Assembly: GCF_024594815.1 (NCBI RefSeq)
Contig: NZ_JANJOU010000001.1
Location: forward strand, 496,001-560,000
DNA: 64,000 nt
Source of the DNA: Roseomonas populi
Lineage (GTDB): Bacteria > Pseudomonadota > Alphaproteobacteria > Acetobacterales > Acetobacteraceae
Direction: 5' to 3'
Part shown: piece after piece, positions 57,104 through 63,620 of the stretch
Numbering within the stretch: position 1 is the first letter of the stretch
Layout: each line of letters begins with the position of its first letter
Position numbers and translations under genes: made by a program
The notes under the pieces: generated by a model
Databases searched by the model: none
What the model saw: only the letters and a program-made list of their open reading frames with translations
What the model was told of the DNA's origin: nothing

Positions 57104-57562
57104 TCACCCCCCCAGAGCCGCCTTTACCATCGGCCCGGCCTTGGCCATATCGAGCACCGCGGCGTGCTTCGCCTTCAGCACCGCCATGACCTTGCCCATG
57201 TCCTTCACGGAGCTAGCGCCGGTCTCGGTTACCGCTTCCTTAACGGCGGCCTGCATCGCGGCATCGTCCATCTGCTGGGGCAGGAAGGACTCGATCACCG
57301 CGATCTCCGCCTCCTCTTTCTCCGCCAGCTCCGGCCGGTTGCCCTGGCGGTACATCTCCACGCTCTCCCGCCGGCTCTTCACCATGCCGCGGAGCATGGA
57401 GGTGATCGCGTCGTCCCCGATCTGGTCCACCCCGCTCGGGCGGGAGGCGATGTCCGCGTCCTTCAGCTTGGCGGTGATCATGCGGATGGCGGAGGTGCGG
57501 GCCGTGTCGCCGGCGCGCATGGAGGCCTTCAACTCTTCAGTGAAACGGGCGCGCAGGCTCAT
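57104..57562 (-). CDS. yqeY: YqeY/GatB-like protein
   Basis: A 152-residue protein of the YqeY family. MSLRARFTEELKASMRAGD, then RRESVEMYRQGNRPELAEKEEAEI and the C-terminal KAHAAVLDMAKAGPMVKAAL match the family, whose fold resembles the tail of the GatB amidotransferase subunit and which may act on charged tRNA. It is usually next to dnaG-rpoD; here the five-gene envelope cluster lies between. It is divergent from carA. Confidence 0.92.
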   Translation of the reverse strand: MSLRARFTEELKASMRAGDTARTSAIRMITAKLKDADIASRPSGVDQIGDDAITSMLRGMVKSRRESVEMYRQGNRPELAEKEEAEIAVIESFLPQQMDDAAMQAAVKEAVTETGASSVKDMGKVMAVLKAKHAAVLDMAKAGPMVKAALGG

Positions 57563-57627
57563 TGCAGGTTCCTCTTGTCTCGGGGGCGCGGTTTAGATCG
57601 GATCGGCGGGAAGGGCCATGCGCTAGG

Positions 57628-57646
57628 CTGGGAAGAGACTTCCCAG
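57628..57646. promoter_or_regulatory. Palindromic operator-like site 1 upstream of HTH-carA
   Basis: CTGGGAAG-AGA-CTTCCCAG is a perfect 8-base dyad with 3-base spacer. It shares the core TGGGAA-N5-TTCCCA with site 2, and the two centres are 43 bases apart (about four helical turns) in the yqeY/carA divergent region. Confidence 0.7.
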
Positions 57647-57671
57647 GCCAGCATGCGGGGCAGCCTTCCCT

Positions 57672-57688
57672 TGGGAAAGAATTTCCCA
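57672..57688. promoter_or_regulatory. Palindromic operator-like site 2 upstream of HTH-carA
   Basis: TGGGAAA-GAA-TTTCCCA is a perfect 7-base dyad with 3-base spacer, ending 12 bases before the ATG of the HTH-carA frame. A weaker half-site (CTTCCC) lies just upstream. The AT-rich CATATT after it could be part of a promoter -10 region. Confidence 0.7.
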
Positions 57689-57700
57689 CATATTGGTGGC

Positions 57701-59098
57701 ATGCGGACGGTCGAGCAGATTCTCACCCTCATGGGGGGCGCAAGCGCCGCGGCGGCGCATTGCGGCGTGGGCACTGAGGCCATTCGGAAGTGGCGCCAGG
57801 CCCGGGCTATTCCGCCACGCCACTGGGCGTCCGTGCTGGCCGCCACCGGCCTCTCTCTTGCAGACCTTCCCCGCGCCGACACTAACCCGCCCCCCACCCC
57901 GGAGCCCGAGATGAGCCCTGCAGCCACCCCCGCCCCGGATGCCGATGCCGTGCCCGAGGGGGCAACGGCCTGCCTCGTGCTGGGCAATGGAAAGGTCATC
58001 TGGGGCCACGGCTTCGGCGCCACCGGCAAGCGGGTGGGCGAGGTGTGCTTCAACACGGGCATGACCGGCTACCAGGAGACGCTGACCGATCCCTCCTACG
58101 CCGGCCAGATCATCACCTTCACCTTTCCTCATATCGGCAATGTCGGCGCCAATGCCGAGGACACGGAGGCGACCACCGCCGCCGCCCTCGGCCTCGTGGT
58201 AAAGGCGGACATCACCGAGCCTTCCAACTACCGCGCCACGCGCGACCTGGATGATTGGCTGAAGAGCAACGGCCTGCCCGGCATCTCCGGCGTGGACACG
58301 CGTGCGCTCACCACCCTGATCCGCGATGCCGGCGCCCCGAACGGCCTGATCTGCCACTCCCCAGACGGTATCTTCGACCTGCCGGCGCTGCGGGCGGAGG
58401 CGGCGGGCTGGCCGGGGCTGGAGGGGATGGATCTGGCGAAGCAGGTCTCCTGCACCCAGTCCTATCACTGGGATGGCGGCCTCTGGGCCTGGGGCCAGGG
58501 CTACGCGACCCAGACGGCGCCGAAGCACAAGGTCGTCGCCGTGGATTACGGCGCCAAGCGCAACATCCTGCGCTGCCTGGCCGATGCCGGCTGCGACGTG
58601 ACCGTTGTGCCCGCCACCGCCACCGCGGAGGAGATCCTGCGGCACGGGCCGGACGGCGTGTTCCTCTCCAACGGCCCCGGGGACCCGGCGGCCACGGGCG
58701 AGTACGCGGTGCCGGCGATCCGGGGCGTGCTGGATGCGGGCAAGCCGGTCTTCGGCATCTGCCTGGGCCACCAGCTCCTGGCGCTGGCGCTGGGCGCGAA
58801 GACCTACAAGCTGGACCGCGGCCACCGGGGCGCGAACCAGCCCGTGAAGGACCTGGCCACCGGCAAAGTGGAGATCACCAGCCAGAACCACGGCTTCGCG
58901 GTGGACGACAAGTCGCTGCCGGAGGGCGTGAGGGTGACCCATGTCAGCCTCTTCGACGGCTCCAACGAGGGTATTTCCTGCGAGGGGCGCAACGCCTTCT
59001 CCGTGCAGTACCACCCGGAGGCCTCTCCGGGCCCGAGCGACAGCCACTACCTGTTCCACCGCTTCACCGACATGATCGAGCGGACGAAGGCGGGCTGA
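57701..59098 (+). CDS. carA: Carbamoyl-phosphate synthase small subunit with in-frame N-terminal HTH domain
   Basis: The glutaminase subunit that feeds ammonia to CarB for arginine and pyrimidine synthesis. The amidotransferase shows GICLGHQLLALA (nucleophile Cys354) and VQYHPEASPGP with the His-Glu pair; the N-terminal CarA domain shows GMTGYQETLTDPSYAGQIIT. From ATG 57701 the same frame first encodes a 57-residue HTH of YdaS/Cro type: VEQILTLMGGASAAAAHCGV, then TEAIRKWRQARAIPPRHW. A Pro-rich linker follows. A plain CarA of 395 residues could start at ATG 57911, which has GGAG upstream; the fused form is 465. There is no stop between them. Two palindromes precede the fused start. Confidence 0.88.
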   Translation: MRTVEQILTLMGGASAAAAHCGVGTEAIRKWRQARAIPPRHWASVLAATGLSLADLPRADTNPPPTPEPEMSPAATPAPDADAVPEGATACLVLGNGKVIWGHGFGATGKRVGEVCFNTGMTGYQETLTDPSYAGQIITFTFPHIGNVGANAEDTEATTAAALGLVVKADITEPSNYRATRDLDDWLKSNGLPGISGVDTRALTTLIRDAGAPNGLICHSPDGIFDLPALRAEAAGWPGLEGMDLAKQVSCTQSYHWDGGLWAWGQGYATQTAPKHKVVAVDYGAKRNILRCLADAGCDVTVVPATATAEEILRHGPDGVFLSNGPGDPAATGEYAVPAIRGVLDAGKPVFGICLGHQLLALALGAKTYKLDRGHRGANQPVKDLATGKVEITSQNHGFAVDDKSLPEGVRVTHVSLFDGSNEGISCEGRNAFSVQYHPEASPGPSDSHYLFHRFTDMIERTKAG

Positions 59099-59099
59099 C

Positions 59100-59732
59100 T
59101 TGCCGTCCCTCGCCTCCCTTCTCGCCTTCGCGGCGCTCTCGGTCGGGCTCGCGCTCACACCGGGGCCGAACCTGTTCTACCTGGTGTCGCGCACGCTGAC
59201 CCAGGGGACGCGGGCGGGGATGCTGTCGTTGATCGGGTGCCAGTTCGGCAGCCTCGTCATCATGCTCGGCGCGGCGCTGGGCGTGACGGCGGCGCTGCTG
59301 GCGGTGCCCTATGCCTACGATGCCATGCGGCTGGGCGGCGCGGCCTATCTTGGCTGGCTGGCGTGGCAGAGCCTGCGGCCAGGCGGTCAGGCCCTTTTTT
59401 CCCCGCGGCCCATCCCGCCGGAGGGCGGGCTGCGCCTTTTCACCCTCGGCTTCGCGACGGCCGCGCTGAACCCGAAGGTGGCGCTGTTCTACGTCGCCGT
59501 GCTGCCCGCCTTCATGGACCCGGCGCGCGGCAGCCTCTTCACGCAGGGCCTGATCCTCGGCGCGGTGCAGATCGCCATCTGCACGGTTTTCGATGCGCTG
59601 ATGGTGGGCGGTGCCGGCGGCGTGGCGCGCTTCCTCTCCACGCGCCCGGCCTGGCTGGCGGTGCAGCGCTGGGTTCTCGGCGGGGCGCTGGCCCTGCTGG
59701 CCGTGAAGCTGGCGACGGACCGCCGCGCATGA
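59100..59732 (+). CDS. LysE-family amino-acid exporter
   Basis: A 210-residue membrane protein with about six helices. ALTPGPNLFYLVSRTLTQGTRAG and GAAYLGWLAWQSLR are signatures of LysE/RhtB exporters of lysine, arginine, homoserine and related compounds. It starts at TTG 59100, one base after the carA stop. Position between carA and carB may link arginine or overflow export to carbamoyl phosphate supply, but this is only inference. Confidence 0.9.
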   Translation: MPSLASLLAFAALSVGLALTPGPNLFYLVSRTLTQGTRAGMLSLIGCQFGSLVIMLGAALGVTAALLAVPYAYDAMRLGGAAYLGWLAWQSLRPGGQALFSPRPIPPEGGLRLFTLGFATAALNPKVALFYVAVLPAFMDPARGSLFTQGLILGAVQIAICTVFDALMVGGAGGVARFLSTRPAWLAVQRWVLGGALALLAVKLATDRRA

Positions 59733-59977
59733 TCCGCCTGCTGATCCTGGCGCTGCCCCTCTCCCTGCTGGCCTGGTGGGCGCTGGTCCGCGTCGGCCAG
59801 CCGCGGGACAGGGCCTGGCTGGGTGGGATCGCCATCTCCTTCGTCGCGCTCGGCGGGATCGTGTTCTTCGCGGATGCCGACCGGCAGGGCGGCCGCGCCC
59901 TGGCCGCCGCGCTCTGGGCGGGGGTGCACGCGGTGCTGTTCCTGATCGGCAAGCCATTCCTGGGGAGGGCGCGATGA
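59729..59977 (+). CDS. Small membrane protein, two to three helices
   Basis: An 82-residue hydrophobic protein (MIRLLILALPLSLLAWWAL, then WLGGIAISFVALGGIVFF and ALWAGVHAVLFLIG). It overlaps the LysE stop by four bases (ATGA) and the next start likewise. It has no recognised domain. Coupling suggests it works with, or at least is made alongside, the transporter. Confidence 0.75.
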   Translation: MIRLLILALPLSLLAWWALVRVGQPRDRAWLGGIAISFVALGGIVFFADADRQGGRALAAALWAGVHAVLFLIGKPFLGRAR

Positions 59978-60360
59978 CGCCGCAGCTCGTTGCCGGCGCC
60001 GTTGCCATGATCGGCGTGCTGGCGCTGATCCTGAACCTGACGATCGTGCAGGCGATCTACCTTTTCGCCCTCTCCTACGTCCTTTTCGCCGCGGGGGCCG
60101 CGGCCACCACGCTGCTGATCCGCTGGGCCATCAAGCTCTTCCTCACGCCGGCCCTGCGGGTGACCGCGGCCCTGATCGGTTCCCTGGCCCTGCACGGGCT
60201 GGCCTGGTGGGACGGCTGGAATCCACTCGCCGGGCTCGCGCCCGATGCCGGTCCGGCCGCCGTGGCCGGCACCCTGCTCATCGCCCATGCGCCGGTGGCG
60301 ATCCTGCTGCTGCGCAACCTCCCTGACGCGGCCCCGCCCGCCGTCCCGCCCTCTCGCTGA
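59974..60360 (+). CDS. Small membrane protein, about four helices
   Basis: A 128-residue hydrophobic protein starting [20 protein letters not shown], with further helices at [20 protein letters not shown] and [19 protein letters not shown]. It is coupled to the preceding gene by an ATGA overlap and lies 11 bases before carB. No family recognised. Confidence 0.75.
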
Positions 60361-60371
60361 ACGGAACGCCC

Positions 60372-63620
<3,249 letters not shown>

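Follow-up and report, generated by a model that had tools for sequence, protein, structure and literature searches.

Arginine and pyrimidines are both made from carbamoyl phosphate, and it is a classic question how a single CPSase operon is balanced between the two pathways. The locus studied here lies in a window of 64 kb from the genome of Roseomonas populi, a member of the Acetobacteraceae, and raises this question in a particular form. Why does the small CPSase subunit CarA begin with a DNA-binding HTH domain, and what binds the two palindromes that lie just upstream of its gene? Our answer, which draws on comparisons of sequences and which we consider likely, is that HTH-CarA is a dual-start, self-repressing CPSase subunit, one gene specifying two proteins.

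HTH and CarA share one reading frame

The frame that opens at ATG 57701 runs through 465 codons to TGA 59098 with no internal stop (Table 1), as the preliminary description of this DNA had claimed when it reported an unbroken HTH, Pro-rich linker and complete CarA. The HTH spans residues 4-56 and matches the NCBIfam model NF046037 (carph-isopro) with 61.8 bits when the N-terminal 70 residues are searched, and with 57.3 bits when the whole protein is, both above the cut-off of 38. In a profile search, no other protein of the R. populi genome matched this model. The Pfam models YdaS (PF15943, 20.6 bits versus a gathering cut-off of 30) and P22_Cro (PF14549, 19.5 versus 30.2) both stay below threshold. 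As for the enzyme moiety, the glutamine-hydrolysing small subunit of CPSase, it matches TIGR01368 with 450.9 bits (cut-off 307.35) and is complete, the profile match covering residues 90-460 and E. coli CarA aligning to residues 89-462. Cys354, His438 and Glu440, which we take to be the amidotransferase catalytic residues, are all present and are invariant across 51 aligned sequences. The best segment shared with Pararoseomonas indoligenes shows 93% protein identity and covers residues 1-465.

The AlphaFold2 model of the HTH consists of four helices (mean pLDDT 84.8), of which helix 25-34 takes the place of the recognition helix, and between the HTH and CarA lies a low-confidence linker in which residues 57-79 have a pLDDT below 50. 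The nearest solved folds found by Foldseek are N15 Cro (6on0, 2hin) and Xfaso 1 Cro (3bd1), with a probability of 1.0, TM values of 0.59-0.65 and 28-29% identity; since the E-values are 0.018-0.27, the modeled resemblance is at the fold level only. Both of these Cro proteins are free-standing phage regulators, whereas the HTH here is fused to CarA. Over 15 members of the genus, pN/pS is 0.23 for the HTH, 0.21 for CarA and 0.58 for linker residues 58-84; judged by this ratio, the HTH is under purifying selection, as CarA is.

Table 1. Features of the HTH-carA locus (positions in the window)
Feature	Position	Strand	Basis or remark
yqeY, divergent	57104..57562	-	PF09424
Distal operator O1 (predicted), TGGGAAGAGACTTCCCA	57629..57645	.	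Extends to 19-bp palindrome 57628-57646
-35 element by position, TTCCCT	57666..57671	+	Alignment of loci; weak match in window
Proximal operator O2 (predicted), TGGGAAAGAATTTCCCA	57672..57688	.	Fills -35/-10 spacer exactly
-10 element by position, CATATT	57689..57694	+	Alignment of loci; weak in window
First start codon ATG of HTH-CarA	57701..57703	+	Predicted transcription start at or beside it
HTH domain, residues 1-57	57701..57871	+	NF046037, fold model
Recognition helix of HTH, residues 25-34			Residue 33 is Gln
Linker, Pro-rich, fast-evolving, residues 58-87	57872..57961	+	pN/pS, pLDDT
Shine-Dalgarno-like GGAG of internal start	57901..57904	+	6 nt upstream of ATG 57911
Internal ATG (Met71), from which HTH-less CarA of 395 aa would start	57911..57913	+	Conserved ATG and Shine-Dalgarno
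CarA proper	57962..59098	+	Profiles, E. coli alignment, Cys354/His438/Glu440
LysE-type gene	59100-59732	+	Closely packed with carA
Two small genes	59729-59977, 59974-60360	+	No Pfam match
carB, CPSase large subunit	60372..63620	+	Downstream of carA

The fusion appears typical of Acetobacteraceae

Genome searches indicate that Acetobacteraceae typically carry the HTH-CarA fusion. In the genus, all 15 genomes, R. populi included, match HTH-CarA from residue 1, and 199 of 200 Acetobacteraceae genomes have a match, most CarA matches among those listed beginning at residues 1-6. The carph-isopro domain scores above cut-off in 56 of 60 Acetobacteraceae genomes, a figure that counts the domain and not its junction to CarA. 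Among the four others, G042 represents a loss, the CarA match of G039 starts 19 bases away from the end of a contig, and G032 and G052 gave weak matches only, unlike CarA, with no convincing CarA found. None of 17 CarA loci from outside the family carries the HTH, and among 30 loci read by eye from a class-wide search for the domain there was a single HTH-CarA, from Acetobacteraceae, the others having the domain on other proteins or being cut short.

For comparison of the loci themselves, 251 were scanned, of which 27 duplicated others by a 180-bp key and were set aside and 19 gave no HTH match; the remaining 205 are the distinct HTH-carA loci used below. Contig ends truncate two of the 19 HTH-less loci (L117 and L177), which leaves 17. 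The frame is open throughout the sequence examined in 203 of the 205. In L175 it shifts between HTH and CarA, and L151 has one stop inside CarA, each of which may be real or an assembly error.

One genus (g29, two of two genomes) has lost the HTH, its CarA matches starting only from residue 79 or 84. GGAG stands directly before the ATG of its carA, a yqeY-like frame (identified by eye) still adjoins the gene, and the 700 nt upstream of carA contain no palindrome with fewer than four mismatches in the two genomes. As read from these sequences, HTH and palindromes are lost jointly in this genus.

Palindromes accompany the HTH

The two matched palindromes that the preliminary description had placed 43 bases apart are both there, at 57628-57646 and 57672-57688, the distance being that between their TGGGAA starts. 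Perfect 7-3-7 palindromes are not rare, 18 of them occurring in the window; the exact TGGGAA-N5-TTCCCA is found twice in the 5.87-Mb R. populi genome, both times before carA. A search of 57400-58100 for RNA elements gave no Rfam match at E ≤ 1.

Across loci, we counted palindromes of the form TGGGAA-N5-TTCCCA or CCGGAA-N5-TTCCGG with at most two mismatches within 200 bp upstream. The second type was added after seeing the Acidocella clade, and both types were used in the shuffle and region controls. At least one such palindrome is present in all 205 HTH-carA loci (191 of TGGGAA type), and an operator-type palindrome is retained in 102 of 102 representatives after thinning to less than 80% identity. 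Ten rounds of dinucleotide shuffling yielded only 5-11 loci out of 205, while the same rule found 5 of 205 inside carA, 1 of 204 at -500 to -300, and none among the HTH-less carA loci (0 of 19, or 0 of the 17 alphaproteobacterial loci that remain without the two contig-end ones). These controls rule out chance palindromes. A second site can be recognized in 198 of 205 loci by a loose score; under the strict rule, 162 of 205 loci have at least two matches. The spacing between the two sites is 37-40 bp in 150 of these 198 loci and 43-44 bp in 19, too variable for a rigid, phase-locked cooperative complex on both; because it varies, a flexible linker fits better.

The motif has few other occurrences. 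Exact TGGGAA-N5-TTCCCA sites were found in 76 of 120 genomes, the 44 without one having mismatched sites, the other motif type or an HTH-carA that was not assembled or kept. Among the 75 exact sites listed for the 120 genomes, 65 are found in the 200 bp before HTH-carA, 6 elsewhere and 4 in genomes whose carA was not located. A wider regulon in R. populi was rejected, as allowing one mismatch adds four sites, equal to the reversed-pattern control. Two exact copies of a 15-bp variant, TGGGAA-N3-TTCCCA, occur in R. populi at C11:63158 and C35:277201 (L171 and L174). Several contigs of one genome, G085, hold 11 exact copies of the motif (L381-L388), nine being one 17-mer on either strand and two another; since the 11 copies amount to two 17-mers, they are probably a dispersed repeat element that contains the motif.

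Residue 33 partly covaries with the operator

If HTH-CarA binds these sites, recognition helix and operator might change together. Residue 33 is Gln in 192 of 205 loci, and Acidocella-type loci combine Ser or Ala at this position with CCGGAA-type sites. By mutual information, a measure that ignores kinship, residue 33 and half-site base 2 form the strongest pair after one degenerate row; that row (residue 26 and base 6, top by z) is a zero-variance artefact and was discarded. We do not take the covariation as proof, since mutual information disregards the relatedness of the loci. On a tree, residue 33 leaves Gln four times, and three of these departures include at least one locus with a different operator class. 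There are counter-cases: three Gln33 loci have an altered operator, and Thr33 loci and one His33 locus have the usual one. From these alignments, recognition-helix residue 33 covaries partly with operator base 2.

Could the palindromes instead be the sites of a separate, trans-acting pyrimidine or arginine regulator, with the HTH serving dimerisation or nucleoid tethering? Repressor sites in carA promoters are usual elsewhere, those for ArgR, PurR, RutR and PepA of E. coli being examples (PMC6245113). We nevertheless find this unlikely, because HTH and sites co-occur in 205 of 205 loci and disappear jointly in genus g29, the recognition-helix residue changes with the site, and the motif is nearly confined to carA, unlike that of a regulon spanning other genes. 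Binding by HTH-CarA itself is the reading we prefer. The homologue comparison that the preliminary description had proposed leans the same way, the HTH, the frame and the palindromes being conserved together and lost together in genus g29. The outcome that would have spoken against the idea, homologues devoid of an in-frame HTH and of conserved palindromes, was not what this comparison gave.

The proximal palindrome fills the promoter spacer

When the 205 loci are aligned on the proximal site, the 17-bp palindrome coincides exactly with the -35/-10 spacer. TTG precedes it at positions -6 to -4 (82, 77 and 76%), T46 A75 T51 A48 follows it, and agreement with the consensus hexamers averages 5.81 of 12, versus 2.81 in shifted frames. 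The window itself has TTCCCT and CATATT, which match the consensus poorly, and scanning it for consensus promoters found none here. The -10 element ends 6, 7 or 8 nt before the ATG in 96, 38 and 10 of the 205 loci, respectively (144 in total), the distance being taken to the most upstream in-frame ATG below O2. Because of this short distance, the HTH-carA message is predicted to be leaderless in most of the family. Leaderless genes are known from the family: in G. oxydans, 62 of 1344 assigned starts are of this kind (PMC5756330). The distance falls outside 6-8 nt in 61 of 205 loci and amounts to 41-73 nt in 37 loci, among them named Komagataeibacter, Acetobacter, Gluconacetobacter and Gluconobacter loci.

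Downstream, the LysE-type gene and the two small genes (59100..60360) follow carA in a tightly packed string that leads up to carB; they are probably co-transcribed with carA, and carB probably belongs to the same operon. The divergent yqeY, which the preliminary description had suggested might also be controlled by the palindromes, was dropped as a target since the distal site has no conserved promoter-like flanks on either side.

As for the sign of the regulation, the distal site lies upstream of -35, and regulators can activate from such positions. HTH-CarA might thus activate through this site, or both activate and repress. This seems improbable to us, since the site with the highest conservation sits across the promoter core, whose spacer has the normal 17 bp, an arrangement that fits a steric block. 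We infer that HTH-CarA, once bound, would act as a repressor.

A probable second start lies in the linker

The preliminary description had proposed a second start at 57911, and sequence conservation supports this in about half of the family. In R. populi, the two predicted forms of CarA would have masses of about 48.7 and 41.4 kDa. An in-frame ATG is present in 146 of 205 linkers, and in 108 of these GGAG, GAGG or AGGA stands 4-10 nt upstream. When the other linker codons were shuffled, linkers with ATG and Shine-Dalgarno motif numbered 13.1 on average and at most 23 in 200 rounds, and of 444 in-frame ATGs deeper in CarA, 8 have such a motif upstream. Several codon registers are represented, with 81 cases falling in the dominant one (GGAG at 6 or 9), and after thinning to less than 80% identity, ATG and motif are found in 43 of 102 representatives. 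A second isoform made from a linker ATG would not be universal, since 59 of 205 linkers have no ATG, including the Acidocella loci except one, both loci of Gluconobacter and those of Commensalibacter. That the HTH is not translated with CarA at all, the enzyme starting at 57911 only and the HTH being a small separate protein or untranslated, is very improbable: GGAG precedes 57911, no convincing Shine-Dalgarno was seen by eye before 57701 and a frameshift separates HTH from CarA in L175, but 203 of 205 frames stay open, the HTH has a pN/pS of 0.23 and invariant residues, and those 59 linkers offer no ATG.

Discussion

The mechanism that we propose for HTH-CarA would run as follows. In most of the family, a leaderless message would be translated from the first ATG into HTH-CarA, while the Shine-Dalgarno motif and ATG in the linker would give HTH-less CarA, probably the bulk enzyme. 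HTH-CarA would bind the palindromes, most likely as pairs of HTHs joined through the domain itself or through CPSase oligomers, and block RNA polymerase, repressing carA and probably the downstream genes as far as carB. Being an autorepressor with a single target, it would report the cellular amount of CarA, free or assembled, and the signal might be CarB stoichiometry, or UMP and ornithine acting via the oligomeric state. In E. coli, the enzyme exists essentially as a heterodimer when UMP is present and as a tetramer in the presence of ornithine, MgATP and potassium (PMC6245113). Should such behaviour hold in Acetobacteraceae, assembly could set the number of HTHs acting together.

The principle has a published precedent in PutA, which PMC5293562 describes as a trifunctional protein with an N-terminal ribbon-helix-helix on a proline-catabolic enzyme, and as the autogenous repressor of the put regulon. 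Both PutA and, by prediction, HTH-CarA are metabolic enzymes that carry a small DNA-binding domain at the N-terminus and have sites in their own promoter. Profile and fold model place a DNA-binding domain in the enzyme chain of CarA, and operators in its own promoter are present as sequence, in the form of palindromes over the promoter core. HTH-CarA differs from PutA in having an HTH and not a ribbon-helix-helix, in being a biosynthetic amidotransferase subunit, in its probable second start and in its nearly single target. BirA, a biotin ligase with an N-terminal HTH, represses its own operon, and its co-repressor is known. By analogy, HTH-CarA would likewise combine both functions in a single chain that begins with an HTH, though the enzymes differ. 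The E. coli carAB operon is controlled by the trigger enzyme PepA with PurR, RutR, IHF and ArgR (PMC6245113). There too, an enzyme represses the CPSase operon at the same metabolic crossroads, as predicted for HTH-CarA, but PepA is encoded elsewhere and works with several co-regulators, whereas here CarA itself bears the HTH.

The domain is already named in NCBIfam, and the HTH of HTH-CarA is a member of NF046037, a model that carries no function; beyond that model, the present analysis connects the HTH with predicted operators, with a promoter layout and with a predicted start inside the gene. The name carph-isopro suggests that curators had met the domain on CPSase. In the open-access literature, we found no description of carph-isopro function or of HTH-CarA autoregulation.

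The domain also occurs on other proteins. It is found on a zinc-dehydrogenase-type enzyme (L345, L351-L371), with 21 full-length matches in 31 genomes of one other alphaproteobacterial family; by eye, this partner reads as crotonyl-CoA carboxylase/reductase. The upstream regions of these 21 fusions share no palindrome, and AACAC and TTGACG stretches recur by eye. At one locus (L341:1441-3000), carph-isopro is joined to a YjeF/NAD(P)H-hydrate dehydratase, and a perfect TTGTACG-N7-CGTACAA ends about 20 nt before the domain match. In many Alphaproteobacteria, long membrane proteins rich in coiled coil (L321-L344) begin with the domain; they look mitofilin-like by eye, a reading without Pfam support, L321 giving a sub-threshold YdaS match only. 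CarA-type operators were discarded as a general feature of carph-isopro fusions: besides the 21 dehydrogenase fusions, eight of mitofilin-like appearance were examined, and the 7-bp inverted repeats that two of them have close to the start differ in sequence. Quite tentatively, the carph-isopro HTH may be a portable module that makes enzymes their own repressors, in CPSase (through isoform ratio and CarA/CarB assembly), in zinc-dehydrogenase-type enzymes and in NAD(P)HX-repair enzymes.

The idea of a self-repressing CarA is directly testable, since it names two operators, a leaderless first start, a second start, residue 33 and a natural loss in one genus. Acetobacteraceae, which include acetic-acid and cellulose producers, seem to have built a repressor into CPSase itself. 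If true, it would make for a self-limiting gene of compact design.
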